Virus record (IMG/VR): IMGVR_UViG_3300047548_001098
Span: 1-37,821 of that record
Direction: 5' to 3' (one strand)
Source: a virus
Length of the DNA: 37,821 nucleotides
Under the pieces are notes generated by a model. That model searched no databases. It was not told the DNA's origin and saw only the letters and a list, made by a program, of their open reading frames with translations. Below, piece after piece: positions 19,429 to 31,707 of this stretch. Both the position numbers and the translations under genes were made by a program. Position 1 is the first letter of the stretch. Each line of letters opens with the position of its first letter.

Positions 19429-20547
19429 ATGGCAAATTTAAGAGATTTAATTAGTTATACTGATCAGCAACAAATTGCTGCTTTCCAAACTGCAGGTATT
19501 AGTACAGTACCTTCAACACCTATATCCTTTCCTGGTTCTGAATATCAGCAATTGCAGTTTAGAACTCATTGTGCTGTAAACAGACATAAGCACTTTGAGT
19601 GCTACATTTGGAAACCCCCAGCAGGAACTACATTTATTAAGTTCGAAGTCTGGGGTGGTGGAGGAGGAGGACCAGGCACTTGTTGCTGTATGTGGGGAAC
19701 TCCTGGTGGTTCAGGTGCTTATGCATTTAAGTGCATTTGTACGGGATTTGATCTTGGTGGATGCACATATGAAATTTGTGTTGCATCTGCTTCTTGCTGC
19801 AGTCCATCTAATGCTGGTGCTCGTGGATGTAAGTCGTTCGTAGTTGGATATGGACTTAATAATTTCTGTGCAGAAGGTGGATACGGTGGATTGTCTCATT
19901 GTGCTTATCAATGGGAAATGACTTGTTTGTGCGATTATACACAAGCATGTTCTGAAGGAGCAAACCCACCATTTGGAAACTGCCAAATGTGTTGTGACCT
20001 CTGGGGAAACTGTGGTTTCTCTTGCTTTACACCTGGTGCTGGAATTGGTAACTATCCAATTGATTACCAAGATGTTACAGAAAATCAATATGATTTAATC
20101 GGTGCAGGAACTACATTTGGTTCAAATTGCCGTAGAGTTGATTATAGTCATGCCCTCAATCCTTGCTATGGTGCTCTTTGCTGGACTATGTGTGCTTATT
20201 GTGCTCCATTCTATGGTGCAGACGGTGGTGCAAGAGGACTACCTGGATTGCTAGGTTCTCCATGCAATCAATCTGCAGCAGATTGGTGTATGCTTGTTCA
20301 ATATCATCCATATCCTGGAGGACTAGTGAATACTAGAGGTGGATATCTTCCATACAGATATTCTGACATGAACCTTGCAGGTGAGCAAGGAACTCATTAT
20401 AGATTCTCAGACTTTTTTGGACACGCATCACAACGTGCAGACGAAGGTATTGTTGGAATGGGAGGAAGATCAGCATCTTCAACTGGAGGAAACTGTTATT
20501 GTGGTGGTCCAGGACATGCTGGAATGGTTCGTATCACTTACGGTTAA
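19429..20547 (+). CDS. Cys/Gly-rich putative adhesin, copy 1
   Basis: A 372-residue protein with 31 cysteines (about 8%) and many glycines. The N-terminus MANLRDLIS is shared in form with the next two genes. Near residues 75-95 a strand (FIKFEVW) runs into six glycines, then GTCCC, then TPGGSGAYA. Later landmarks are NNFCAEGGYGG, YGADGGARGLPG, YPGGLVNTRGGY and the end GHAGMVRITYG. The glycine-rich strands resemble the receptor-binding tips of phage fibres (Gly-rich adhesin domains, as in gp38-type adhesins), but this density of cysteine is unusual. No metal-cluster spacing, signal peptide or membrane segment stands out. It is probably exposed on the virion, where the cysteines may form disulfides or bind metal; this is inference. 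GAGGAGAG precedes the ATG. Confidence 0.7.
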   Translation: MANLRDLISYTDQQQIAAFQTAGISTVPSTPISFPGSEYQQLQFRTHCAVNRHKHFECYIWKPPAGTTFIKFEVWGGGGGGPGTCCCMWGTPGGSGAYAFKCICTGFDLGGCTYEICVASASCCSPSNAGARGCKSFVVGYGLNNFCAEGGYGGLSHCAYQWEMTCLCDYTQACSEGANPPFGNCQMCCDLWGNCGFSCFTPGAGIGNYPIDYQDVTENQYDLIGAGTTFGSNCRRVDYSHALNPCYGALCWTMCAYCAPFYGADGGARGLPGLLGSPCNQSAADWCMLVQYHPYPGGLVNTRGGYLPYRYSDMNLAGEQGTHYRFSDFFGHASQRADEGIVGMGGRSASSTGGNCYCGGPGHAGMVRITYG

Positions 20548-20560
20548 TAGGAGAATTTAA

Positions 20561-21523
20561 ATGTCTAGATTAAGAGAATTATTAAATACAGAGAATCAAG
20601 TTGAACTCCAGCAAAGAGTGTGCGGATTTCGTTCCACCCAATGGGGAAATGGTTGGGGTAATCTTTTAGTTGATGGTTTTGATATTTTCTATGGTGGTCA
20701 TTGTTGGTTTGACAACTGCAATACATCATACAGACAATGGTGTGGTGGATTTTGTGTTTACCCTGGAGTAACTACTGTACAATTCCATATTTGGGGTGGT
20801 GGTGGTTCAGGTGGAAGTGCTTGCTGCTGTCAGCAAGGTTCCCCAAGTGGTTCTGGTGCATATGCCATGAAGACCATATGTGCTAGAGATTTGGGATTAG
20901 ATACACTAGGTGGTATGTGCTACTTATGGTTTGTTGGTCCAAATGCTACATGTACATGTAACTGTTTCGGAACCACTGGATGTAAAACTTGGATAACTGG
21001 TTGTGGATTAACAAACTTCTGTGCAGAGGGTGGACTTCCAGGAAGAACTTGTTGTTTCATTTACCATGATGCACATGGTGCAAACTTAACTGGAACATAT
21101 GGACCAGGAGGAACAACTGGACCAACACCAAGAAATTCATTAGGTTGCTATACCTTAGACCCAGTATCTGGAACTTGCTATAGATGCGATTGTGCTTGTT
21201 ACTATGGTGCAGATTTTGGAGTGCCAGGAAGAGCAGGATGGTTCCGTGTAGATTGCATTTGCGGAAACAACTGTTTTGTAAGACTCGGTATTCCTCAACC
21301 AGGTGGATTTAGAGATAAAGAAACTAGATATATTATTCACAGAAACTCTGGAAATGCTTGCTGTAATGAAAGAGCAATGTGCTGGTTGGGTGAATGGCCT
21401 GGAAATGCAAACTGTTCAATGGGAATGAGAGGTGCAGGACATCCTTCAGCAACTTCATGTGCAGGAAACTGTTCTACTGCTGGACCTGGAACTCCTGGTC
21501 TCATCAGAATCACCTATAGATAA
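20561..21523 (+). CDS. Cys/Gly-rich putative adhesin, copy 2
   Basis: A 320-residue paralogue of the preceding gene, with 32 cysteines (10%). It has the same order of landmarks: MSRLRELLN start, VQFHIW then GGGGSGG, SACCCQQGSPSGSGAYAMK, TNFCAEGG, CYYGADFGVPG, and the end GTPGLIRITYR. The middle between AEGG and YGAD differs from the other copies and carries a GTYGPGGTTGPTP stretch. It starts 13 bases after the previous stop with AGGAGA as ribosome site, so the pair is co-translated. This copy has a shorter, more diverged C-terminal third. The role is the same inference as for copy 1: a receptor-binding tip or tip decoration with its own specificity. Confidence 0.7.
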   Translation: MSRLRELLNTENQVELQQRVCGFRSTQWGNGWGNLLVDGFDIFYGGHCWFDNCNTSYRQWCGGFCVYPGVTTVQFHIWGGGGSGGSACCCQQGSPSGSGAYAMKTICARDLGLDTLGGMCYLWFVGPNATCTCNCFGTTGCKTWITGCGLTNFCAEGGLPGRTCCFIYHDAHGANLTGTYGPGGTTGPTPRNSLGCYTLDPVSGTCYRCDCACYYGADFGVPGRAGWFRVDCICGNNCFVRLGIPQPGGFRDKETRYIIHRNSGNACCNERAMCWLGEWPGNANCSMGMRGAGHPSATSCAGNCSTAGPGTPGLIRITYR

Positions 21524-21548: not shown

Positions 21549-22508
21549 ATGGCAAATCTTAGAACTCTGTTGGGTTCAGCAGAACCAAATTTTACAGGAA
21601 TTCATTCTGGTGGTATTGGAAGACTCAGAGAGGGTCAAGTAACCTATTTTATGGCACACATGTGTGGTAACACTGATGGTAGTTATGAAACCACATGTTG
21701 TCAAGCACCAGCAGGTGACTTTACCATGGGTTACAATAATTTTGTATATTGCTGCTGGAAGGTTCCTTCATATCCTGGTGCAGGAACAACTGCAATTACC
21801 TTTGAAATTTGGGGTGCTGGTGGAGGTGGTGCTGGATCTTGCTGTTGTGCTTATGGTATTCCTGGTGGTGCTGGTGCATATGCATATAAGACAGTAGTTG
21901 GTGTTGCATCTGGAACTCCTTATGTTTTCAGAATTGGTTCCCCAACATGTAAAGTTCCTGGTCCTACTGGATTAAGAGGAGAGTGTACTACTGTTACTGG
22001 AACAGGATTGACTAATTTTTATGCAGAAGGTGGATGGGGTGGATGCAGTTTCTGCATTACTCAATTCTGTGGATTAAAGTGCTACTGGAAGACCGCAATT
22101 GGTGCTTCTGAAGGTTTTGGTGGAAGAAATAATATCGTAGGTTTAAGTACTTCTTGTGTTGGATGTTGTGCAACATATTCTGGTGCAGATGGTGGTGCAT
22201 TCGGATTGCCTGGTGCTTATGGTCTTTTCTGCCATCAAGATAAAGCTTGGAACCTAATGCATATCGCATATCCAGGTGGATTGGTCAATCAAAAAGGTGG
22301 TTGGGTTTCCTCTCACCAATGTGAAAACGCTACATGTGGATTCTGGAACCAAACATGGGCAGCAGGACAACTAGGATTTGGTGGATATTTTGAAAGCAAT
22401 TATGTTCCTGGACTTGGTGGTGCCTCAGCAACTACTTGCAATGGTGGATGCTGCTGTGGAAATCCTGGTTGGGCAGGTGCAGTTCGTGTCACTGTAAGAT
22501 ACGTCTAA
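21549..22508 (+). CDS. Cys/Gly-rich putative adhesin, copy 3
   Basis: A 319-residue third paralogue, with 24 cysteines (7.5%). Landmarks are MANLRTLLG, ITFEIWGAGGGGAG, SCCCAYGIPGGAGAYAYK, TNFYAEGGWGG (Tyr where the others have Cys), YSGADGGAFGLPG, YPGGLVNQKGGW and the end GWAGAVRVTVRYV. In the last 120 residues it is closer to copy 1 than to copy 2 (the YPGGLVN.[RK]GG segment is shared by copies 1 and 3). It has its own candidate late promoter overlapping the upstream stop, and AAGAGGAAA as ribosome site. It is probably a further receptor-binding or tip protein. Confidence 0.7.
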   Translation: MANLRTLLGSAEPNFTGIHSGGIGRLREGQVTYFMAHMCGNTDGSYETTCCQAPAGDFTMGYNNFVYCCWKVPSYPGAGTTAITFEIWGAGGGGAGSCCCAYGIPGGAGAYAYKTVVGVASGTPYVFRIGSPTCKVPGPTGLRGECTTVTGTGLTNFYAEGGWGGCSFCITQFCGLKCYWKTAIGASEGFGGRNNIVGLSTSCVGCCATYSGADGGAFGLPGAYGLFCHQDKAWNLMHIAYPGGLVNQKGGWVSSHQCENATCGFWNQTWAAGQLGFGGYFESNYVPGLGGASATTCNGGCCCGNPGWAGAVRVTVRYV

Positions 22509-22539: not shown

Positions 22540-23394
22540 ATGCCATTAATTTCACAGAAAATTACCTATGATATGCCAGATGAATATTTGGCACAGACTA
22601 ATGAACTTGGATTGACTGGTGAATACACCTATAATGGTCCAGATAAAGTATATGTTATGATTGATCCAAAAACAAATAAAATTGCCAATCATCTTGGTTT
22701 TCTTCCCTATCAAGATGAGTGGTCTGAAGAAGAGAATGAAGCATTTGCTGAGCAATTTTCTGGGTTATCTTTTGGATATGCATCCATCAGTTTTGACAAA
22801 GACCCCGTATTGTTAGCAGCAGTATTAGGTGGTTCTTATGACCCTCCTGGTGATTCAGTACCACAAAAAACTTATACTCTTGAGGGTGAAACTACCCCAT
22901 TCTATAGTAGACCAGAATCAACTTTCCCAAGTCACACAATAGAAGCATGGGATGTAGAGTGGGATGGTTCAGAATGGAAAAAACCATATCCATGGAAAAA
23001 ACCACATGTAACTAAGGATGAATTACTATCTGCTTTAGCTATTGTTATAAAGCAAGATAAAGAAGTAGATACTTCTTCATTTACATCCACACAAAAAACT
23101 AAGTGGAGTGCATATTTAACTGAACTTGAAAACGTTCCTGTAAAGTTTGCGGATTATTTGGATACACCTTGGATGGTTCCTTTCCCAACAAATCCAATGT
23201 GGTCTGATAATTGGAGTGCAGCAAATGGAAATTTCTTCGGAAATGACAATAAGGCAGGTGAACAAAAAGTTGAAAAACCAGAAGGTCCTGTTGAATATGT
23301 TGATGGAAAACCATACAGAGATGGTGTAGAATTAACTGAAGAGGAAGTAGCAGAAACATCAGAAGTACCAGAAGAAGCACCAGCAGCAGAATAA
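22540..23394 (+). CDS. Possible tail-fibre assembly chaperone-like protein
   Basis: A 284-residue protein with no signal or membrane segment. Residues about 120-160 are rich in W, K and P (TIEAWDVEWDGSEWKKPYPW). Residues about 190-225 (STQKTKWSAYLTELENVP ... DTPWMVPFP) have the pattern 'kW..Y...L..vP' seen at the end of phage tail-fibre assembly chaperones (Phage_tail_APC / Tfa-like). The last 45 residues are an acidic Glu/Pro/Ala-rich tail, probably disordered. A chaperone would fit its place directly after fibre genes and before a terminator, but the match is from pattern memory only and the protein could instead be a minor virion component. An 8-bp hairpin (one G-U pair, GAAT loop) lies at 22574-22593. 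Confidence 0.6.
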   Translation: MPLISQKITYDMPDEYLAQTNELGLTGEYTYNGPDKVYVMIDPKTNKIANHLGFLPYQDEWSEEENEAFAEQFSGLSFGYASISFDKDPVLLAAVLGGSYDPPGDSVPQKTYTLEGETTPFYSRPESTFPSHTIEAWDVEWDGSEWKKPYPWKKPHVTKDELLSALAIVIKQDKEVDTSSFTSTQKTKWSAYLTELENVPVKFADYLDTPWMVPFPTNPMWSDNWSAANGNFFGNDNKAGEQKVEKPEGPVEYVDGKPYRDGVELTEEEVAETSEVPEEAPAAE

Positions 23395-23457: not shown

Positions 23458-23482
23458 AGAGGGGAAATATCCCCTCTTTTTT
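23458..23482 (+). terminator. Intrinsic terminator closing the fibre block
   Basis: A perfect 7-bp stem AGAGGGG/CCCCTCT with loop AAATAT is followed by a run of six T. It separates the fibre genes from the sugar island. Confidence 0.9.
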
Positions 23483-23500
23483 ATGTACTAAATAACTTTG

Positions 23501-23535: not shown

Positions 23536-24699
23536 ATGAGATCAAAAGCATTTTTTGTAAATGGTGGAGCAGGCAGAGTAATTTGCTCAATACCAGCATT
23601 TGAAAAATATCAAGAAGAAAATCCCGATGAAGATTTCCTGATCGTTTGCGAAGGAGGAACAGATTTCTTCAAAGGACATCCAACTCTTTTTCCAAAAGTC
23701 TACGATCACTGGCACAAAAATCTTTTCAGAGATAAACTGAAAGATATGGATATTGTGACCACAGAACCATATCGTATTTGGGAATACTATAATCAAAAGT
23801 GTAATCTTTCTCAGGCTTTTGATATTCAAATCAACGGAAAAGGAATTAGAGAATTACAAAAACCAACCATTAAACTTTCTAGACAAGAAATGATTAATGG
23901 TAAATTTGTTATTGAAGAAGTTAGACAAAAAACCAAAAAAGATAAAGTTGTTGTATTCCAACCATTTGGTCGTGGTACTCAAGTAATGGGTAATTTTATT
24001 ACCGATTCGAGTGGAAGAAGTTTTGAATTCAGTAATGTCGTGTCAATAATAAAAAAATTACAGAAAAAATATTCTGTAATTTATATGGGTGAAGTTGAAT
24101 TAGACTTCCAGAAAGAAGGGTGCAAAGACCCTGTTGCTTGCCCAAGAGGAATTGACTTAAGACAATGGGCAGGTATTATTGCAGAAGCAGATTTATTCCT
24201 AGGATGCGATTCTGTTGGTCAGCACATGGCGTATTCTTTGGATATTCCTGCTGTTGTTGTAGTTGGTGCAACATGTAAAGAGAATATTAGTTATCCAAAT
24301 TGTGACAAATTTGAAGTTCTTGATATGGGAGAAGGTCTACGGATTTATGATCCCATTAGAATCGCAATGGATGAAGTAAGTGGTAGAACTAATGATGGAA
24401 TAATGGCAATGAATGACAAAGTAGAATCAGTCATTCTCCAATCAGTAGATAAATTGATGAATAGATATTATGTTAAAAAAACTGATGCAGTTGTTCTCCC
24501 AACTATGGAACAACAACAAGCATCTTGCGGTATGCCCCCAGGAAAATTAGAGCAATCACCTCAATTCACTGGAGCATCAGCAGAACAAACTAAAAAAGCA
24601 ATGAATTCAATAGATGCTGTTTTGGAAGAAAATGGCATTAAACCTAATGGAAATAATAAAAAATCTTTAGGATTTATTGAAACAGTTAAAACTATTTGA
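23536..24699 (+). CDS. GT9 / heptosyltransferase-like glycosyltransferase
   Basis: A 387-residue protein with the layout of GT-B glycosyltransferases of family 9 (ADP-heptose:LPS heptosyltransferases). The N-terminal strand and glycine turn is FFVNGGAGRVICSIPAFEKY (residues 6-25). The C-terminal nucleotide-sugar part, about residues 205-250, has DLRQWAGIIAEADLFLGCDS followed by VGQHMAYSLDIPAVVVVG, the family's 'l...a.ll..a.l.vg.DSG..HlA.al..P.v.ifG' signature. No membrane segment is visible, so it is probably cytosolic. The C-terminal 60 residues (QQQASCGMPPGKLEQSP onward) are low-complexity and unlike the family. With ADP-heptose genes downstream, ADP-heptose is the likely donor; the acceptor is unknown. 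GAGGCG precedes the ATG. It is the first gene of a run with gaps of at most 10 bases. Confidence 0.75.
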   Translation: MRSKAFFVNGGAGRVICSIPAFEKYQEENPDEDFLIVCEGGTDFFKGHPTLFPKVYDHWHKNLFRDKLKDMDIVTTEPYRIWEYYNQKCNLSQAFDIQINGKGIRELQKPTIKLSRQEMINGKFVIEEVRQKTKKDKVVVFQPFGRGTQVMGNFITDSSGRSFEFSNVVSIIKKLQKKYSVIYMGEVELDFQKEGCKDPVACPRGIDLRQWAGIIAEADLFLGCDSVGQHMAYSLDIPAVVVVGATCKENISYPNCDKFEVLDMGEGLRIYDPIRIAMDEVSGRTNDGIMAMNDKVESVILQSVDKLMNRYYVKKTDAVVLPTMEQQQASCGMPPGKLEQSPQFTGASAEQTKKAMNSIDAVLEENGIKPNGNNKKSLGFIETVKTI

Positions 24700-24709
24700 G
24701 GTGTAAAAT

Positions 24710-26395
24710 ATGACTATTATTGCAGCATGTGCCCGTGGTCATAACGGAAGCACAACTCTTCTAAAAGATGGTGAAGTTATTTTTTATCTTGAAGAAGAAA
24801 GACTATCTAAATTTAAATATGATGGTTCACCCCTTCTTGGTCTTGAAAAGGTATTTGACTATGTTGACCATATTGACCACTTGGTTGTTTGTCATACTCA
24901 TAGGCATGGACCACAATTGGATTGGACTGGAGAAGACTTATATCACGGATGGGTGAGAAAACTTGCCAAGAAAAAGTTTGATTTTGAAGTTCACTTCATT
25001 GACACAATTCACCATGAAATGCACGCTGCATGTGGTTTTTATAACTCTGGGTTTGAAACTGCTGCTTGCGTAATTGCCGATGGTGCTGGAAGTTTCCTTC
25101 AATTTGAGGGTGTTGATGATGTGGTATTTGAATTTGAAAGTATTTTCAAAGCATCATACCCACAAAATTTTGAGGTAGTTTATAAGCACTTGGGAACAAA
25201 AGCACCCATAGGATGCAACGAAGTTAAAGAAGGAGTGTTTATAACTGAATATCCAGGACATACTAAAATGTATGAATCCGTTACGGAATATTGTGGTTTC
25301 CCTGCAATTGAAGCAGGAAAATTGATGGGACTTGCACCTTACGGAAAACCAAACGATTCTCTTCCAAAGTTTTTCAGTAATGGATGGGGTAATAGAGAAT
25401 TAATTATCCCAACATATCCAAATGCTGCAAAAATAAATGTGGGAAGATATGATGTTCTAATGGAAGATGTTAAGCATCATAAGGTTGGACAATATACAGA
25501 AATCCAAAAGGACATGGCATATGCTATCCAAGAAGCAACGTCAGATAGGATGGTTGAATTAATTCGTAAAGCACATGAAGAAACTGGAGAAACAAACATT
25601 GTTATTTGTGGTGGATATGGTCTTAACTGTGTTGCAAACTACAAATACTGGAAAGAATTCCCAGATTTAAACATTTATTGTGAACCAATTTCTCATGATG
25701 GTGGAACTTCTATTGGTGGTGCAAAATATATTTGGAATAAAATTGCATCAAATAAAAAACCACAAAAACAGGCATCTGTTTATTATGGACCAAAGTATGA
25801 TCCATCCTCTTATGAAGATGCTTTAGAAGGACTAGAAGTTACTGATACTTCTTATGATGAAGTAGCACAACTCATTCGTAATGGAAACATAGTAACTATG
25901 TATCAAGGACGTTCTGAGGGTGGTCCTCGTGCTCTTGGCAATCGTTCAATTCTGTTTGATCCAACAATTAAAGATGGAAAAGATATTGTCAATACAGTAA
26001 AACGTCGTGAATGGTTCCGTCCTTTTGCATGTACGATTAAAAAAGAATCTGTACATGACTGGTTTGACCTTGTAGGACGTGATGAAACTCCACATATGAT
26101 GTACGCAGTAAAATGCCACCAAGGCATTGAGGAAAAAATTCCTTCGGTTATCCATGTTGATGGCACTTGCCGTATTCAGACGGTTACTCCAGAGCAAAAT
26201 GAGCACTACTATAATCTCATTGATGCATTTGAAAAACTTAGTGAAGTTCCTATTTTGTTCAACACTAGTTTTAATCTTGGTGGTGATCCATTGGTAGAAA
26301 CTGTAGAAGATGGTGTAAATACTCTGAAAAAGAGTGATATCGAATACATGTATCTTCCAGAAATTCAAAAACTTGTTTATATTCCTAACGAGTGA
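24710..26395 (+). CDS. O-carbamoyltransferase (NodU/TobZ family), copy 1
   Basis: A 561-residue protein of normal family length. The N-terminal ASKHA-like domain opens with the GHNGSTTLL strand and EEERLSK motif. The metal-binding HHEMHA motif is at residues about 101-106, followed by the ADGAGS loop and GGYGLNCVANYK near 299-310. The C-terminal YrdC-related domain has GRSEGGPRALGNRS (about 400-413) and VKRREWFRPFA (about 430-440), and ends with VPILFNTSFNLGGDPLVET. These enzymes use carbamoyl phosphate and ATP to carbamoylate a hydroxyl, often of a sugar. Here a heptose or another glycan on the same pathway is the likely acceptor, by context only. GAGGTG lies before the ATG. It is followed after 3 bases by a paralogue. 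Confidence 0.9.
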   Translation: MTIIAACARGHNGSTTLLKDGEVIFYLEEERLSKFKYDGSPLLGLEKVFDYVDHIDHLVVCHTHRHGPQLDWTGEDLYHGWVRKLAKKKFDFEVHFIDTIHHEMHAACGFYNSGFETAACVIADGAGSFLQFEGVDDVVFEFESIFKASYPQNFEVVYKHLGTKAPIGCNEVKEGVFITEYPGHTKMYESVTEYCGFPAIEAGKLMGLAPYGKPNDSLPKFFSNGWGNRELIIPTYPNAAKINVGRYDVLMEDVKHHKVGQYTEIQKDMAYAIQEATSDRMVELIRKAHEETGETNIVICGGYGLNCVANYKYWKEFPDLNIYCEPISHDGGTSIGGAKYIWNKIASNKKPQKQASVYYGPKYDPSSYEDALEGLEVTDTSYDEVAQLIRNGNIVTMYQGRSEGGPRALGNRSILFDPTIKDGKDIVNTVKRREWFRPFACTIKKESVHDWFDLVGRDETPHMMYAVKCHQGIEEKIPSVIHVDGTCRIQTVTPEQNEHYYNLIDAFEKLSEVPILFNTSFNLGGDPLVETVEDGVNTLKKSDIEYMYLPEIQKLVYIPNE

Positions 26396-26398
26396 TTT

Positions 26399-28099
26399 AT
26401 GTGGATTTTATCATTCAATATTCATCATAATGCTTCCGTAACTTTAATGGAGGACGATAAGGTTGTCCTCCATATTGAAGAGGAAAGATTAACTCATGTT
26501 AAGCATGATAAATTTCCTCTTCATTCTTTACAACTGATAAAAAATTACACAAATACTATTGATTATTGTACTTTTACTTACCTTTGGGATTTTAATACAG
26601 ACCCTTCAGTGTATGTAAAATACCTTCAACACTTTTGTGGAATTAGAGTATTGAAATTTGAGCAATCCGAGCATCATCATTTACTACATGCAAATTGTGC
26701 ATTTGGTCATTCAGATTTTGATGATGCGATAGTTATTGTCCTTGATGGTGCTGGGTCAGATTTACCATATGGAAAAGAAAATGAAACCATTTTCCAATTA
26801 AGCAAAACAAATAAACCTAAAATTTTATATCAATCAGTTTTTGGAAAAGATGAATTAGTTAAATCATCAGAAGAATTACCTATCCCAAAATATGTAAATA
26901 AACAAAAAACCATTGGAGCAGGAATGGTATATGCTGCTGCAACAGAGTGGTTGGGGTGGGCTAGTTTAGAATGCGGAAAAACTATGGGGTTAGCACCATA
27001 TGGTGCCTATGATGAAAACATAAAACCAATGATAACCGAGTCTGGTGGAATACCAGAAAGATTTGGTATCCTAAGTTATCATAATGTTGATGACATTGGA
27101 GCAATTTTAAATGGATATGAATACATTGAAGCATCAGAATCACATTGGGCATCAGATGAAATAAAGATTTTATCTGGATATGTAACTTATGGTCCAAAAG
27201 AACTTGAAAGAAGAAGAAGAAATCTTGCGTATACTGTTCAATTTGAATATGAACAATATTTAATTAATCTAGCAAAAAGAGCATTATCATTATCGAATTG
27301 TAAAAATTTAATTTTAACTGGTGGTTGTGCTTTAAATTGTGTTGCTAACTACAAATTATTAAAGACTTTACCAGAAGATATAAATCTTTTTATCGAACCT
27401 CTTTCTTCGGATTGTGGGGTTTCTATGGGTGCTGCTTTTGGTTTATATGATAAACTAAATGAAAAAGGAAATTTCAAATTAAAAAATATTTACCTAGGAC
27501 AACAATTAGAATATAACTATGAATTAAAAGATTCAGAGGTAGAAACAATAGTAAGTCCAGATGATATTGCCCGTCTTTTAGTGGATGGGAACATCATCGC
27601 AATGGCACAAGGAAAATCAGAAGTTGGGCCTAGAGCATTAGGAAATAGGTCCATACTTTTTGACCCAAGACACCCAAATGGAAAAGATATTGTTAATACA
27701 GTAAAAAGAAGAGAATACTTTAGACCGTTTGCTGGTACTGTTTTACTAGAAAACGCTAAAGAATGGTTTGATATGGATAGACTTGAAGAAAGTCCATATA
27801 TGATGTATGCTGTTGATGTATTGGAAGAAAAGAAAAAAGAAATACCAGCAATAACACATGTTGATGGTACTTGCAGAGTACAAACTGTAACAAAAGAACA
27901 AAATAAAAACTATTATGATTTAATAAATTCTTTTTATGAATTAACTGGTGTTCCAATTTTGTTTAATACCTCATTTAATCTTGCTGGTGACACTATGGTA
28001 GAAACCATCATTGATGCATTTAGAACAATGAGAAATAGTCAGATTGAATACTTATATCTTCCAGAAATAGAAAAACTAATCTACTTCCCAAATAAATGA
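26399..28099 (+). CDS. O-carbamoyltransferase (NodU/TobZ family), copy 2
   Basis: A 566-residue paralogue of the preceding enzyme, with all main motifs kept: HHNASVTLM and EEERLTH at the N-terminus, HHHLLHA (about 92-98), VLDGAGSD, GGCALNCVANYK, GKSEVGPRALGNRS (about 404-417), RREYFRPFAG and VPILFNTSFNLAGDTMVET. It differs from copy 1 in the region between the metal motif and the LNCVANYK motif, where acceptor recognition is expected, and carries a KYVNKQKTIGAGMVYAAATE stretch. It is likely active on a different hydroxyl or acceptor; that is inference. The ATG is 3 bases after the upstream stop and the stop overlaps the next ATG by 4 bases. A perfect 9-bp hairpin lies at 26447-26473. Confidence 0.9.
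   Translation: MWILSFNIHHNASVTLMEDDKVVLHIEEERLTHVKHDKFPLHSLQLIKNYTNTIDYCTFTYLWDFNTDPSVYVKYLQHFCGIRVLKFEQSEHHHLLHANCAFGHSDFDDAIVIVLDGAGSDLPYGKENETIFQLSKTNKPKILYQSVFGKDELVKSSEELPIPKYVNKQKTIGAGMVYAAATEWLGWASLECGKTMGLAPYGAYDENIKPMITESGGIPERFGILSYHNVDDIGAILNGYEYIEASESHWASDEIKILSGYVTYGPKELERRRRNLAYTVQFEYEQYLINLAKRALSLSNCKNLILTGGCALNCVANYKLLKTLPEDINLFIEPLSSDCGVSMGAAFGLYDKLNEKGNFKLKNIYLGQQLEYNYELKDSEVETIVSPDDIARLLVDGNIIAMAQGKSEVGPRALGNRSILFDPRHPNGKDIVNTVKRREYFRPFAGTVLLENAKEWFDMDRLEESPYMMYAVDVLEEKKKEIPAITHVDGTCRVQTVTKEQNKNYYDLINSFYELTGVPILFNTSFNLAGDTMVETIIDAFRTMRNSQIEYLYLPEIEKLIYFPNK
26447..26473 (+). other. Perfect 9-bp RNA hairpin near a gene start
   Basis: ATGGAGGAC pairs with GTCCTCCAT around a 9-base loop, 48 bases into the second carbamoyltransferase gene. 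The arm contains a GGAGGA sequence followed by no nearby start codon. There is no T-tract. Confidence 0.5.
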
Positions 28100-28497
28100 A
28101 AAAAGTTTTTGTAAATGGCACATTTGATTTAATTCATTCTGGTCATATACATCTCCTAAACTACGCAAAAAGTTTAGGAGACTTTTTGTATGTGGCAATC
28201 GACACTGATGAAAGAGTCAAAGAAAAAAAGGGTTCTTCTAGACCTATATACAATCTCCAAGAAAGAATATTTCATCTGCAGAATATTAAACCAGTAGATG
28301 TTGTTCTTTCCTTTGCTACTGACAATCAACTGGAAAACCTTGTTAAAATAGTAGAACCTGATATAATGATAGTAGGATCCGATTGGAAAGGAAAACCAGT
28401 TATAGGTTCACAATATGCTTCAAATTTAGTATTTTTTGATCGTATAGAAGAGTATGCAACAACAAAAACAGTACAAAGTATTATTAATAGGGGATAG
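28096..28497 (+). CDS. hldC: HldE C-domain-like heptose-1-phosphate nucleotidyltransferase
   Basis: A 133-residue stand-alone cytidylyltransferase-fold enzyme. It starts with the nucleotide-binding strand VNGTFDLIHSGH, with the HxGH motif at residues 14-17. It then follows the HldE (RfaE domain II) pattern: GSSRPIYNLQERIFHL, then VDVVLSF, LVKIVEPDIMIVGSDWKGK, PVIGSQY, and the end EEYATTKTVQSIINRG, equivalent to the 'sTT.ii..i' of HldE. Expected reaction: D-glycero-beta-D-manno-heptose 1-phosphate plus ATP gives ADP-heptose. Closely related nucleotidyltransferases for glycerol-3-phosphate share the fold, but the SRPI, PD.m..GsDw and TT.tv features and the adjacent kinase favour the heptose enzyme. 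The start overlaps the upstream stop (ATGA); the 3' end overlaps the kinase gene by 44 bases. Confidence 0.82.
   Translation: MKKVFVNGTFDLIHSGHIHLLNYAKSLGDFLYVAIDTDERVKEKKGSSRPIYNLQERIFHLQNIKPVDVVLSFATDNQLENLVKIVEPDIMIVGSDWKGKPVIGSQYASNLVFFDRIEEYATTKTVQSIINRG
28153..28180 (+). other. Perfect 10-bp hairpin followed by a T-tract inside hldC
   Basis: CTCCTAAACT pairs with AGTTTAGGAG around an 8-base loop, then AC and TTTTT. It lies 57 bases into the coding sequence and looks like an attenuator-type terminator, yet sits inside the gene. Confidence 0.5.
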
Positions 28498-29218
28498 TTG
28501 TGAAGATGAGTACATATATGGAAAGTGTGAAAGACTAAATCCAGAAGCACCAGTTCCTGTAATGGTTTATTCCAAGATTGAAACTAAAGCAGGAATGGCA
28601 GGCAACGTTTGCTTGAATCTTCAATCATTTGATATTGATGTTACTTTTTTAACTAACTCAGAAAAAATAGTTAAAACTAGATTTATTGATCAAAAGTCAA
28701 ATCAACAATTACTTAGGGTTGATAATGAGGAGCAAATAAAACCATTGCTACTTCCTGTAAGTAGTAATGGTTTTGATGCAATAGTAATATCAGACTATAA
28801 TAAGGGATACTTAACTACTAAAAAATTATTTGAAGTAGTAGGGTCTTCAAGTATTCCCGTATTTATTGATAGCAAAAAAACAATCTTACCAAATAAAGAA
28901 AATTGTTTTATAAAAATTAATGATGTTGAGTATGAAAAATTAGAAAATCCAGGAGAATACAATAACCTAATAGTCACAAAAGGTTCTGATGGTTGCTTTT
29001 ACCGAGACACCCATTACCCAGGAGAAAAGGTTAATGTATATGATGTGGTTGGTGCTGGTGATACATTTCTTGCAGCATTGACTTATGGTTATCTAAAAAC
29101 TAATGATATTAATAAGGCATTGTGTTTAGCAAACAGGGCAGCTTCTATTGCTGTCCAAAATTATGGAACTTATGTATTAAGCAAAAATGACGTTAACAAC
29201 ATATGTAATAGACATTGA
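28454..29218 (+). CDS. hldA: HldE N-domain-like heptose-7-phosphate kinase (PfkB family)
   Basis: A 254-residue PfkB/ribokinase-family protein with HldE-specific features: GDSCEDEYIYGKCERLNPEA then PVPV (residues about 13-36), KAGMAGNVCLNL, KTRFIDQKSNQQLLRVDNEE, ISDYNKGYL, VTKGSDGCF, and the catalytic VVGAGDTFLA with Asp at about 203. Expected reaction: ATP-dependent phosphorylation of D-glycero-D-manno-heptose 7-phosphate to the 1,7-bisphosphate. It is about 60 residues shorter than the HldE kinase domain; the usual 'itPN..E' acceptor loop is IKINDVEY here. The start codon lies 44 bases inside the upstream gene. The first beta strand (YKVLLIGD) is encoded within the overlap, so the long overlap is real. 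No ATG alternative keeps that strand. Confidence 0.82.
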   Translation: MQQQKQYKVLLIGDSCEDEYIYGKCERLNPEAPVPVMVYSKIETKAGMAGNVCLNLQSFDIDVTFLTNSEKIVKTRFIDQKSNQQLLRVDNEEQIKPLLLPVSSNGFDAIVISDYNKGYLTTKKLFEVVGSSSIPVFIDSKKTILPNKENCFIKINDVEYEKLENPGEYNNLIVTKGSDGCFYRDTHYPGEKVNVYDVVGAGDTFLAALTYGYLKTNDINKALCLANRAASIAVQNYGTYVLSKNDVNNICNRH

Positions 29219-29522
29219 TGGGACTATCTGTATTAATGGAGACTGTTCATCCTGCAAATATGAAGGTAGTACTCCCATCTACGAAAGAATTGAAAAACTA
29301 AACTCCTTATATGATGCAGGTCATATCATAAAGTACTTTACTGCTCGTGGTATGGGAAGGTACAAAGATGATAAAGAAAAAGCAGAAGAAAAATTTTACA
29401 ATCTGACTAAAATGCAATTAGACATATGGGGATGTAAATACCACGAATTAATACTAGGAAAACCAAGTGGTGATATATACATAGATGACAAAGGTATGAA
29501 TGCTAATGACTTCTTCAATTAA
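29187..29522 (+). CDS. Small HAD-superfamily phosphatase
   Basis: A 111-residue minimal HAD protein. Motif I is DIDGTIC with nucleophile Asp9 and acid/base Asp11. Motif II is the FTARG strand (Thr at about residue 52). A GKPSGDIYIDDKG segment (residues about 91-103) carries the metal-binding Asp pair. There is room for no cap domain beyond a short CxxC-like loop (DCSSCKYEG). Such small HADs occur in polysaccharide and nucleotide-sugar clusters. In this context the missing activity would be the heptose 1,7-bisphosphate phosphatase (GmhB role), but it lacks the GmhB signature I would expect, so the substrate is inference. The gene overlaps the kinase by 32 bases and the cupin gene by 23 bases. 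Confidence 0.75.
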   Translation: MTLTTYVIDIDGTICINGDCSSCKYEGSTPIYERIEKLNSLYDAGHIIKYFTARGMGRYKDDKEKAEEKFYNLTKMQLDIWGCKYHELILGKPSGDIYIDDKGMNANDFFN

Positions 29523-29865
29523 ATTAGTCCCTAAGGGATGGGGATTTGAAAAATGGATAGTAAATAATGAGCAGTACTGTGGAAAACTTTTATATTTTGT
29601 AAAGGGGAAGCAATGCTCTTGGCATTACCATAAAATTAAAGACGAGACCTTTTATATTCAGTCTGGAAAAATTATATTGCTTTATGGTTATGATGATGAC
29701 ATAACTTTGGCAGAAAAAAAAGTCCTAAGGAAAGGAGATAATTTCCATGTTCCAGTGGGACTCAGGCATAGGATGTATGCTTTAGAGGATACAGAATTAT
29801 TTGAGTTTTCTACTCAGCATTTTGATTCTGATAGCTATAGAGTCATTGAAGGAGATACTGTCTAA
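29500..29865 (+). CDS. Cupin (type II sugar-phosphate isomerase-like)
   Basis: A 121-residue single-domain cupin. The first cupin motif is CSWHYHKIKDETFYIQSGK, with the metal ligands H, H and E. The second has FHVPVGLRHRM with the last His. The opening PKGWGFEKWI and the closing YRVIEGD resemble the C-terminal cupin half of mannose-6-phosphate isomerase/ManC-type proteins. It may therefore bind or isomerise a sugar phosphate, possibly supplying the pathway; whether it replaces the absent GmhA is speculation. The ATG at 29500 overlaps the HAD gene; the ATG at 29506 (giving MTSSIKLV) is equally possible. Its last 23 bases overlap the 3' end of the opposite-strand hldD. Confidence 0.72.
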   Translation: MLMTSSIKLVPKGWGFEKWIVNNEQYCGKLLYFVKGKQCSWHYHKIKDETFYIQSGKIILLYGYDDDITLAEKKVLRKGDNFHVPVGLRHRMYALEDTELFEFSTQHFDSDSYRVIEGDTV

Positions 29866-30589
29866 CTGTTTTAAATTCATAACCAGTTAACCATTCCATA
29901 TTTGCTTTTGTATAGTTTTGATATTTTCCTTTTAAATGTTCGGGGAAGTCGATGTATTCGATTTCCCCTTTTTTTATTTCTGCAACAAGTTCTGCAACTT
30001 CTTGAAAACTAATTGGATTTCCAGTACCTAAATCATAAATTCCAGATGGTGCTTTGTTATTAAGAACAATATTTACAATATCATCTACACAAACAAAGTC
30101 TCTTAAAAATTGGTCAGACCCTTTGAAAAGTTTAAGTTTTCCTGTTTCTTTAATTTGTTTGGTAAATTTTGAGATTGGTGATGCTTGGTCTTCTTTGTGC
30201 TCTTCACCATTTCCATAAACATTAAAATACCTAAATGATTGAATTGATGAGAATTTTGTAATTGCATAATAATTAAGTGGATTAATAGTCCCAAAAGTAT
30301 TTCCATATACTGATGCTGAAGATGCAAATTTTACTGGGATTTGATATTTAATTGCATAATCAAACAACTGCAACGTAAATGCAACATTGTTGTGGTGTAA
30401 AGTAGATATATTACGTTCTATCGTTGATGAAATTGCCCCCTGGTGAAGAATAAGACTTACCTTATTCCATTGGTCAAATGAGGACAGAAATCTAAAGCAA
30501 TCATCTTTTTCAACTTCAATAACTGGTTTATTAAGAGACTTAAGAAAATTTTTTCCAATAAAACCAGAAGAACCAGTAAGAATTATCAT
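29843..30589 (-). CDS. hldD: ADP-L-glycero-D-manno-heptose 6-epimerase-like (HldD)
   Basis: A 248-residue extended SDR protein, the only minus-strand gene. The NAD(P) motif GSSGFIG is at residues 6-12, HQGAISST at 49-56, the Ser of SSASVYGN at about 90-93, and the catalytic YxxxK at Tyr108-Lys112. HldD-specific stretches follow: FRYFNVYGNGEEHK, LFKGSDQFLRDFVCVDDIV, IYDLGTGNPISFQEVAELV, and GEIEYIDFPEHLKGKYQNYT (208-227). HldD converts ADP-D,D-heptose to ADP-L,D-heptose. Compared with the E. coli enzyme as I remember it, the helix right after YxxxK is shortened by roughly 15-20 residues. No clear Shine-Dalgarno sequence precedes the ATG. A TATAAATC sequence on the minus strand at 30598-30605 is a possible promoter. 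The 3' part contains a plus-strand terminator. Confidence 0.82.
   Translation of the reverse strand: MIILTGSSGFIGKNFLKSLNKPVIEVEKDDCFRFLSSFDQWNKVSLILHQGAISSTIERNISTLHHNNVAFTLQLFDYAIKYQIPVKFASSASVYGNTFGTINPLNYYAITKFSSIQSFRYFNVYGNGEEHKEDQASPISKFTKQIKETGKLKLFKGSDQFLRDFVCVDDIVNIVLNNKAPSGIYDLGTGNPISFQEVAELVAEIKKGEIEYIDFPEHLKGKYQNYTKANMEWLTGYEFKTVRQYLLQ
29942..29978 (+). terminator. Plus-strand intrinsic terminator inside antisense hldD
   Basis: GGGGAAGTCGA pairs with TCGATTTCCCC (11 pairs, one G-U) around loop TGTAT and is followed by TTTTTTTATTT. It lies 77 bases after the cupin stop and would end the plus-strand island transcript. The same bases encode KKGEIEYIDFP of HldD on the other strand. 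Confidence 0.75.
30523..30566 (-). other. RNA hairpin near the start of hldD
   Basis: On the minus strand CTGGTTTTATT pairs with AATAAACCAG (10 pairs, one bulged T) across a 24-base loop. It begins 23 bases into the gene. Confidence 0.35.
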
Positions 30590-30600
30590 AGTAAGTGATT

Positions 30601-30608
30601 TATAAATA
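30601..30608 (+). promoter_or_regulatory. T4-type late promoter TATAAATA
   Basis: An exact octamer in the 41-base gap between divergent hldD and the gene at 30631, ending 22 bases before that ATG. On the opposite strand the overlapping bases read TATAAATC, so the site may fire in both directions. Confidence 0.7.
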
Positions 30609-30630: not shown

Positions 30631-31707
30631 ATGGCTTTTGGCCTTTTATCGTCTAATATACCAATTCCGAATAAAAATACTATATTATATACTTCTTCTT
30701 CTGGGGTATTGGTAGACGGAAAAATAACCGTTTCCCACAAAAATTTTGAGCCAACAAGAATTAAAGTTGGAATTTCTACAAATGGTATTGATTCAAAGTA
30801 TATTGTTTCTGCTATTTTAGAAAGAGGAGAAACATATGAATCTGATACTATTTATTTTGGGAATGGTCAAAGTTTAATTATACAATCTTCTTTGCCAAAT
30901 ACCAACTTTGTTATATTTGGGGAAGAATATTCAGATACTACAGACTCAGTAATTCTAACCTCTCAAATATCAACAAAAAATAAAAGACTTCCATTATATA
31001 CTGCACCAGTAGGAAGATCTGTAGAGGTTACTGTAGTTGCCTCTAATTTGGGTTCATTAGATTCTAAAATTAGATTAGGAATTACCACATCATCAATATT
31101 AAACTTTAATAGTTCAGAATATATTGAATATAATGAAAATCTTCACCCAAATCAATCATATACAAGAACAAACTTAAAACTATCAAATGGGCAAACTCTT
31201 GTATATTCTTCGGATGATGGTTCTAAGGTATCATTTGTTGTATTTGGGAAGTCTGTAGAAGAACCACTTCCTCCAAATACTTTTTCTAATTTAACAGTAA
31301 CTGGTCCAGCAAGTATATCTGGAAATGTAAACGTTTCTGGTATTATTACAGCTACATCTATAGATGCTCAAGTAAGTGCTGAAGATGTAACTGGCAATCT
31401 TCCCGAAAATGTTTCATCAACGATAAGATTCCGTTCAAATCAAAGTCCCGTTGGTGTAGCAAGAACATTATCTGCAAACAAAAATTTAAATTTAACTATA
31501 ACGAACGGTATTGCAAATTTATCTGTTTCTGAAAGTATTTCAATTAATGATGGGGCAAGTATAGGGGGTCCATTAAGTGTTGGTTCAACAATCAATGCAC
31601 TAAATAATAAAGTTATAAATGTTGGGACTGCAACCTCTGATTTGGATGCCACTAACAAAAAATATGTTGATACAAGAGCAATTGTAATGGCAATCGCACT
31701 TTCTTAA
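30631..31707 (+). CDS. Fibre-like virion protein with two repeat modules
   Basis: A 358-residue all-beta protein. Residues about 15-100 and 110-205 are two copies of the module that makes up the whole 106-residue protein at 18706: LYT.p.g..v...v...N......[IK]R[VL]G[IV][ST] then Y...N..L..g....R..L....GQ.L...S. Residues about 215-260 (FSNLTVTGPASISGNVNVSG) are the typical 'ltvtG...isG.lnV.G' fibre repeat. The C-terminus (NALNNKVINVGTATSDLDAT then NKKYVDTRA) is the collar-like end seen in T4-like short and long fibres just before chaperone or tip regions. It is probably a tail-fibre or whisker-like protein. It follows an exact late promoter; the ribosome site is weak (AAAGTATAG). Confidence 0.72.
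   Translation: MAFGLLSSNIPIPNKNTILYTSSSGVLVDGKITVSHKNFEPTRIKVGISTNGIDSKYIVSAILERGETYESDTIYFGNGQSLIIQSSLPNTNFVIFGEEYSDTTDSVILTSQISTKNKRLPLYTAPVGRSVEVTVVASNLGSLDSKIRLGITTSSILNFNSSEYIEYNENLHPNQSYTRTNLKLSNGQTLVYSSDDGSKVSFVVFGKSVEEPLPPNTFSNLTVTGPASISGNVNVSGIITATSIDAQVSAEDVTGNLPENVSSTIRFRSNQSPVGVARTLSANKNLNLTITNGIANLSVSESISINDGASIGGPLSVGSTINALNNKVINVGTATSDLDATNKKYVDTRAIVMAIALS

Follow-up and report, generated by a model that had tools for sequence, protein, structure and literature searches.

A conserved tail-module operon of T4-like cyanophages and its possible role in making, transferring and carbamoylating a heptose-type sugar

Introduction

Why should a virus carry, among its tail genes, enzymes resembling those that make activated heptose, and to what would such a sugar be attached? 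The question is raised by eight consecutive genes at positions 23536–30589 of the IMG/VR virus record IMGVR_UViG_3300047548_001098, whose whole 37,821-nucleotide stretch was analysed here and is called the window. An initial interpretation made from the letters alone (hereafter the sequence-only reading) had described these eight open reading frames, and all of them were confirmed at the same coordinates. Sullivan et al. 2010 left undecided whether genes of this kind have any function (PMC3037559).

On balance, we think that the locus, part of the tail-fibre module in T4-like cyanophages, is a conserved late operon that makes, transfers and carbamoylates a heptose-type sugar. The product within the infected cell would be ADP-L-glycero-D-manno-heptose. 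In the proposed route, a cupin would convert sedoheptulose 7-phosphate (the GmhA step), a kinase would add the 1-phosphate, a small HAD protein would remove the 7-phosphate, an HldC-like enzyme would attach AMP, and an HldD-like enzyme would epimerise C6. A GT9-fold protein would transfer the sugar, and one or two O-carbamoyltransferases would decorate it. The most likely acceptor would be the phage's own Gly/Cys-rich tail adhesins, which are encoded directly upstream. The kinase, adenylyltransferase, epimerase and GT9 fold of the window correspond stepwise to the HldE/HldD/WaaC/WaaF route of E. coli. In contrast to HldE, the kinase and adenylyltransferase functions are split between two short proteins, and GmhA and GmhB are apparently replaced in the phage by the cupin and the small HAD protein. 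The gene cluster itself is already known; new here are the cupin as a candidate replacement for GmhA, the late-promoter motif at the operon start, and the linkage of the GT9-like gene to the adhesins.

Enzymes of the heptose core

The kinase gene (28454..29218, + strand) encodes a compact HldA-like D-glycero-beta-D-manno-heptose 7-phosphate kinase of 254 amino acids. In a scan of curated profiles it matched TIGR02198 with E 8e-46, against E 1.5e-13 for ribokinase, and it also matches the structure 4e84. The PfkB catalytic motif GAGD (G200, A201, G202, D203) is invariant across 10 phage kinases. The HldC-like D-glycero-beta-D-manno-heptose 1-phosphate adenylyltransferase (28096..28497, + strand, 133 amino acids) matched TIGR02199 (rfaE domain II) with 107.7 bits and E 4e-31, compared with 71.6 bits for glycerol-3-phosphate cytidylyltransferase, and contains the nucleotidyltransferase signature GTFD...HSGH; its sequence predicts action on heptose 1-phosphate with ATP. 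The HldD-like ADP-heptose 6-epimerase (29843..30589, - strand, 248 amino acids) matched TIGR02197 with 190.8 bits and E 3e-56 and aligns to 1eq2 with E 2e-40. This alignment reveals the hallmarks of HldD, namely the Rossmann motif TGxxGxxG, YxxxK, and the HK...AS motif, whose lysine we take to be the second catalytic lysine of HldD. For all three proteins the heptose-route profiles outscore other sugar families. The assignment of the kinase, nucleotidyltransferase and epimerase to the ADP-heptose route in the sequence-only reading is thus borne out by curated profiles and structure matches.

Two observations weigh against a straightforward identification. None of the core proteins reached an NCBIfam equivalog cut-off in the profile scan, the kinase scoring 156.5 bits against a curated TIGR02198 cut-off of 345 bits, so the core proteins are divergent, shortened members of their families. 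The second concerns the window epimerase, which has a 39-base in-frame deletion at 30252–30256 relative to contig L013, located at a 5-base repeat. The 13 residues directly after YxxxK are gone, and this segment of the fold is not intact in the window copy. Contig L013 keeps the 13 residues and is otherwise 100% identical over 9.1 kb, and the segment is also intact in L012, L102 and the named phages, the deletion being confined to the window copy. The window epimerase may therefore be a defective allele, or the deletion may be an assembly slip between the short repeats.

A cupin as candidate for the isomerase step

In the sequence-only reading only GmhA was not in view, and the cupin had no role. 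The absence of GmhA was confirmed: GmhA/SIS_2 profiles found no match in nine complete phages carrying the heptose core, and in the other searched IMG/VR records they gave one 18-bit fragment and nothing else. The cupin (29500..29865, + strand, 121 amino acids, with a complete set of metal ligands) proved, on the other hand, to be a strong candidate for this step.

The cupin is present in 35 phage records, each with a heptose-7-phosphate kinase, which is of the HldA type in 31 records and of the GHMP/HddA type, adjoining the cupin, in four. All 31 cyanophage records with an HldA-type kinase contain the cupin. In Bellamy (twice), SynMITS9220M01 and AG-345-E15 it has a GHMP kinase gene on one side and a sugar-1-phosphate nucleotidyltransferase gene on the other. 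The GHMP kinases of Bellamy and SynMITS9220M01 match the HddA-type heptose-7-phosphate kinase (NF049969, E 7e-83 and 3e-85), and their nucleotidyltransferases match the HddC-type guanylyltransferase, that is, the GDP-heptose route; AG-345-E15 has the same arrangement. The ADP- and GDP-heptose routes have only the isomerase and the phosphatase in common. By serving both routes, the cupin behaves as expected of an isomerase.

The predicted structure of the cupin (predicted local distance difference test, pLDDT, of 95) has D-lyxose isomerases as its top Foldseek matches, and these also give the highest identity, 29%, among the VIA cupin matches. D-lyxose isomerase catalyses the reversible conversion of a ketose into an aldose of manno configuration, a reaction of the type carried out by GmhA. 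The cupin profile aligned to the B. subtilis D-lyxose isomerase 2y0o across 92 positions; the Pfam model Lyx_isomer (PF07385) gave 15.6 bits, below the gathering cut-off of 20.8, and 13–20 bits for the relatives. The sugar and metal contacts of the Thermofilum D-lyxose isomerase TsLI (7nzo) are K62, H75, H77, K86, E88, H143, E156 and D163 (PMC8378251). By the 2y0o alignment and residue spacing they map to K29, H42, H44, K47, E49, H90, E102 and D109, and hence all eight contacts, four metal ligands included, are present in the window cupin. The first seven are invariant in 39/39 phage cupins and D109 is found in 30/39. The phage protein, with 24–29% identity to TsLI and 2y0o, is shorter than these enzymes (121 versus about 180 amino acids) and lacks their N-terminal helices. 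Since the cupin is found in every heptose-kinase cyanophage record and keeps the contacts of D-lyxose isomerase, it fits the role of the missing isomerase better than any other candidate. We give it about an even chance of being a sedoheptulose-7-phosphate isomerase that stands in for GmhA.

Several results pull in the other direction. The VIA Z-scores are tied, so that D-lyxose isomerases are inseparable from other cupins by this measure, and in SynMITS9220M01 and the record of locus L198 the cupin coexists with a GmhA-like gene that belongs to another module. A YCxK motif considered as isomerase-specific was dropped, because a NeuB-fused cupin has it too, though minus one metal ligand. In addition, Campylobacter has cupins that act as C3/C5 epimerases on heptoses, though without a cofactor (PMC7949155). 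The phage cupin could have a tailoring function, such as epimerising or tautomerising the activated sugar, with heptose 7-phosphate supplied by a host GmhA. Such a supply was looked for in 121 genomes of a host family defined from a single-cell Prochlorococcus genome, which may not be the family of the window phage's host: GmhA-family matches (profile at E 1e-3) were found in 27 genomes and a strong HldD match in three. Fusions of NeuB-like synthases with sequence-related cupins also suit a tailoring role. However, 94 of the 121 genomes have no GmhA match, and in the NeuB-fused cupin one metal ligand is replaced by Gln. RmlC-type epimerases reportedly need no cofactor and use a His-Asp dyad (PMC7949155), whereas the phage cupin keeps four metal ligands and both active-site lysines of D-lyxose isomerase. 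Its occurrence with ADP and GDP routes alike is also an isomerase-like pattern. We put the tailoring role at somewhat less than an even chance and retain the isomerase as the working assignment of the cupin.

Several further features of these genes and their surroundings were observed. The cupin of P-SSM2 (PSSM2_312 in NC_006883.2; phrog_7851) and its orthologues are named 'cysteine dioxygenase' in databases, which looks wrong. A second heptose module, composed of a GHMP kinase, a GmhA-like SIS protein and a HAD-nucleotidyltransferase fusion, is found in L360 (SynMITS9220M01) and L198/L362, adjoining cupin-type modules within the same genome. The NeuB-like synthase of L355 has a C-terminal cupin akin to the phage cupin, with Gln at one metal-ligand position. 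Transketolase-like genes near the heptose kinase in the phage glycan clusters of L185 (5015–6135), L008 (7847–8992) and L009 (6978–8186) could provide sedoheptulose 7-phosphate.

The phosphatase step

The small HAD phosphatase (29187..29522, + strand, 111 amino acids) matched TIGR01689 with E 2e-7, which places it with the EcbF/BcbF-like capsule phosphatases, and it matches the structure 9iqw. The GmhB models TIGR00213 and NF006506 did not match it in the profile scan. A GmhB-like protein is encoded in four cassettes (L078, L083, L086 and L087), all of them without the small HAD gene; three of these proteins were scanned with NF006506 and gave E about 1e-38 to 1e-42. A fusion of the small HAD protein to a nucleotidyltransferase is seen in L360 and L362. 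The lack of the small HAD gene in the GmhB-like cassettes and the fusion fit a bisphosphatase that acts just before nucleotidyl transfer. The sequence-only reading had placed the protein at the GmhB step; genomic context backs that step, but the family is not GmhB. Loci L102–L104 are counterexamples among near relatives, as neither the small HAD protein nor GmhB was found nearby; together with other loci of this kind they weaken a strict rule of one phosphatase or the other. We consider it reasonably probable that the small HAD protein is the heptose-1,7-bisphosphate 7-phosphatase. Its P-SSM2 orthologue (PSSM2_311 in NC_006883.2; phrog_1238) and further orthologues are named 'phosphoheptose isomerase' in databases, which looks wrong as well.

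The GT9-fold protein and the carbamoyltransferases

The first gene of the operon (23536..24699, + strand) encodes a GT9-like protein of 387 amino acids with a weak sequence signal (PF01075, E 0.0034; TIGR02201, E 8e-6; both below cut-offs). A comparison of its profile with solved structures by sequence gave nothing meaningful, and the similarity is visible in the fold only. The AlphaFold model (mean pLDDT 86.6) matched the Veillonella GT9 protein with Z 24.4, WaaF with 21.9, TibC with 20.1 and WaaC with 19.9, over 255–283 residues. Plant NDH-PSI subunits gave Z 18.8–19.8, and other GT-B proteins gave values from 12.8 downwards. The predicted fold is clearly that of GT9/heptosyltransferases, as the sequence-only reading had proposed. 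A D-S-x-G-x-H motif (D225, S226, G228, H230), invariant in 42 GT9-like sequences, falls in the nucleotide-side D-S/T-G-x-x-H region, and the profile alignment of the family to WaaF/WaaC spans this region.

A role in heptose transfer is called into question by Arg14, an invariant residue of the phage family at the place of Asp13 in the conserved G12-D13 of WaaC and WaaF. The equivalence of Arg14 and Asp13 was derived from the motif and a one-residue offset in the fold alignment, and Asp13 is presumably the catalytic residue. With Arg in its place, the phage protein is not classed as a canonical heptosyltransferase. The TibC-type protein heptosyltransferase shares the GT9 fold and would suit a protein acceptor, but identity to TibC is about 12% and the catalytic Asp is not conserved.

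Carbamoyltransferase 1 (24710..26395, 561 amino acids) and carbamoyltransferase 2 (26399..28099, 566 amino acids), both on the + strand, contain the NodU/TobZ O-carbamoyltransferase domains PF16861 and PF02543 above cut-off. The first is the orthologue of the single copy in S-CAM1 and S-CAM3, and first copies of other loci are likewise orthologous to the one copy of relatives. The second groups with other second-in-tandem copies in a deep clade of their own, which rules out a recent tandem duplication. About 25 distinct loci have such twin carbamoyltransferases, contrary to the suggestion that they may be undescribed.

Conservation and modularity of the locus

The genes keep the same order and place in P-SSM2, S-CAM1, S-CAM3, S-SSM7, Sf-FS3 and over 100 loci of IMG/VR, a recurrence that chance would not produce. 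When 178 loci were scanned with profiles, most of them shared one order: adhesins, phrog_9740, the GT9-like gene, one or two carbamoyltransferases, nucleotidyltransferase, kinase, HAD, cupin, epimerase on the - strand, and a fibre gene. In P-SSM2/P-SSM5 (PSSM2_307–313, T4-GC 302–308) the same seven gene types lie between tail genes in the same order and strand pattern; these phages differ from the window in having one full-length carbamoyltransferase, an extra 2-oxoglutarate (2OG)-Fe(II) oxygenase and an undeleted epimerase. The same cassette with its neighbours is found in S-CAM1, S-CAM3, S-SSM7 and Sf-FS3. S-CAM1 and S-CAM3 have three adhesins and phrog_9740 and differ by the single carbamoyltransferase; the S-SSM7 (L006) and Sf-FS3 (L005) cassettes have an added short carbamoyltransferase and 2OG-Fe(II) oxygenases, and S-SSM7 also a tryptophan halogenase and a methyltransferase. 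The extra enzymes of these two cassettes are of kinds able to act on proteins.

T4-GC 304, 305, 307 and 308 were named by Sullivan et al. 2010 as co-occurring lipopolysaccharide (LPS) genes (PMC3037559), and the SynMITS9220M01 announcement already named heptose genes (PMC7378029). With the cluster present in P-SSM2, S-CAM1, S-CAM3 and S-SSM7, the sequence-only reading did not hold in suggesting that the heptose route may be undescribed. A mobile cassette, also suggested there, was rejected because place and order are conserved across genera. That reading had named scattering of the genes in relatives as evidence that would count against it, and the genes are clustered. The conservation also bears on the view that the genes are headful-packaging filler DNA, a possibility that Sullivan et al. 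2010 brought up for large cyanophages (PMC3037559), or decaying remnants. The in-frame deletion in the window epimerase would agree with decay, but the conserved order, the intact reading frames and the catalytic residues invariant over diverse phages make this view highly improbable.

Loci differ in whether a heptose core lies between the carbamoyltransferase gene and the structural gene that follows. The core genes themselves co-occur: among 89 well-covered kinase loci, the nucleotidyltransferase is found in 88, the cupin in 86, the epimerase in 81 and the HAD gene in 77. In S-T4, P-TIM68, S-SM2 and Sf-CH8 the five-gene core lacks the GT9-like gene and is located inside larger glycan clusters with several glycosyltransferases. 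Loci L166, L169–L177, L300, L306 and others speak against the proposed role of the operon, since they have the GT9-like gene and carbamoyltransferase beside adhesins and no heptose genes; in combination with Arg14, they mean that the transferred sugar need not be heptose. The GT9-fold protein and the carbamoyltransferases could then be a functional unit for another sugar, with the heptose core as a separate passenger module. Yet every one of the 58 well-covered loci that combine the kinase with the GT9-like gene also has the nucleotidyltransferase, cupin and epimerase, in one order, and the GT9-like fold is nearest to ADP-heptose-dependent enzymes. We regard separate modules as rather unlikely, and heptose as the probable transferred sugar.

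Three of the loci without heptose genes (L172, L173 and L176) have an SGNH-hydrolase-like protein between the GT9-like gene and the carbamoyltransferase, and the L173 cassette terminates in a tryptophan-halogenase-like open reading frame. Contigs L185, L186 and L198, binned as Planctomycetaceae, Euryarchaeota and Acidimicrobiaceae metagenome-assembled genomes, resemble cyanophage-type virus contigs.

Late promoter motifs and operon boundaries

The motif CTAAATA is located at 23488..23494 (+ strand), 48 bases 5' of the first gene. We take [CA]TAAATA to be the T4-type late promoter of cyanophages. It was found upstream of the GT9-like gene in 64/85 distinct loci, where 4.9 were expected, and a scan of upstream regions found none before the carbamoyltransferase, nucleotidyltransferase, kinase or cupin genes. 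Preceding the GT9-like gene and never the following ones, the motif makes the + strand operon look like a single late transcription unit. A check of 25 gene starts in the window revealed ATAAATA 28–49 bases 5' of many + strand structural genes, and [CA]TAAATA occurs 14 times on the + strand and three times on the - strand of the window, a distribution consistent with T4-type late promoters.

The operon lies between structural genes, as first described. Upstream, the phrog_9740 protein gene (22540..23394, + strand) separates it from the adhesins, an order conserved in relatives. Downstream it is bounded by a tail fibre gene (30631..31707, + strand; phrog_11338), and an ATAAATA late-promoter-like motif (30602..30608, + strand) is found 5' of this gene in the divergent intergenic region. 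The bounding terminators of the sequence-only reading correspond to two terminator-like hairpins on the + strand. One, at 23458..23477, separates the upstream structural genes from the operon; the other, at 29942..29968, ends the + strand operon 77 bases 3' of the cupin, within the convergent epimerase gene. The hairpin scan found nine such structures in the region against 4.3 +/- 2.1 expected.

Tail adhesins or host surface as acceptor

The constant 5' neighbours of the operon are three tandem genes for Gly/Cys-rich adhesin-like proteins (phrog_4205; 19429–20547, 20561–21523 and 21549–22508, all on the + strand). These proteins have a conserved WGGGGxGxxxCCC core, are highly variable between phages and are likely tail-tip adhesins. 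Of 16 complete cyanophages, five have the adhesin family together with the GT9-like gene and 11 have neither (5/5 versus 0/11). Four of the 11, S-T4, P-TIM68, S-SM2 and Sf-CH8, still have the heptose kinase and the cupin. The GT9-like gene tracks the adhesins, not the heptose core, and the two remain neighbours in loci without the core and in those with an inverted block.

Heptose and Kdo (3-deoxy-D-manno-octulosonic acid) are both absent from the published LPS of the marine Synechococcus strains WH8102 and CC9311 (PMC4515613), and Sf-FS3, a carrier of the cassette, has WH8102 as its host. Given this LPS and the linkage, an adhesin is a more economical acceptor than the host LPS core, and decoration of tail adhesins is favoured over host LPS modification. 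The weak point is that the linkage may reflect shared inheritance of the whole tail module. Collagen-like repeats, as targets of oxygenases or glycosylation, were not found in the window fibre proteins. We propose a Gly/Cys-rich tail adhesin as the acceptor tentatively.

Alternatively, the operon may act on the host surface during infection and decorate LPS or some other envelope glycan with carbamoylated heptose, with a purpose such as a superinfection block or the release of progeny from receptors, as in classical phage O-antigen conversion. GT9 enzymes are mostly LPS heptosyltransferases, the five-gene core lies in the large multi-glycosyltransferase glycan clusters of S-T4, P-TIM68, S-SM2 and Sf-CH8, and Sullivan et al. 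2010 term these LPS genes (PMC3037559). However, the LPS of WH8102 and CC9311 offers no heptose/Kdo core to extend (PMC4515613), and a late-type promoter motif at the operon start would be late for remodelling of the host surface. The GT9-like gene is, moreover, missing from the phages with the core in glycan clusters and follows the adhesin genes instead. We consider host-surface modification somewhat unlikely and keep the tail adhesins as the preferred acceptor.

Biological significance

In its most specific form, the proposal combines a complete ADP-heptose route, in which a cupin of the D-lyxose-isomerase kind replaces GmhA, with late attachment of carbamoylated heptose to the phage's own adhesins by a GT9 protein with Arg for Asp, in hosts with heptose-free LPS. 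That all these parts hold together seems doubtful, and parts of it can be valued separately. Should the cupin act as a sedoheptulose-7-phosphate isomerase, it would provide bacterial heptose synthesis with a second, unrelated enzyme for the first step. It would account for the gene missing in cyanophages and correct two misleading phage-database names, 'phosphoheptose isomerase' for the HAD protein and 'cysteine dioxygenase' for the cupin. The operon makes the function of phage 'LPS genes' directly testable. If the sugar goes on the tail adhesins, the phage would be glycosylating receptor-binding proteins with a system of its own, which would shift the usual view of marine phage 'LPS genes' as modifiers of the host surface.

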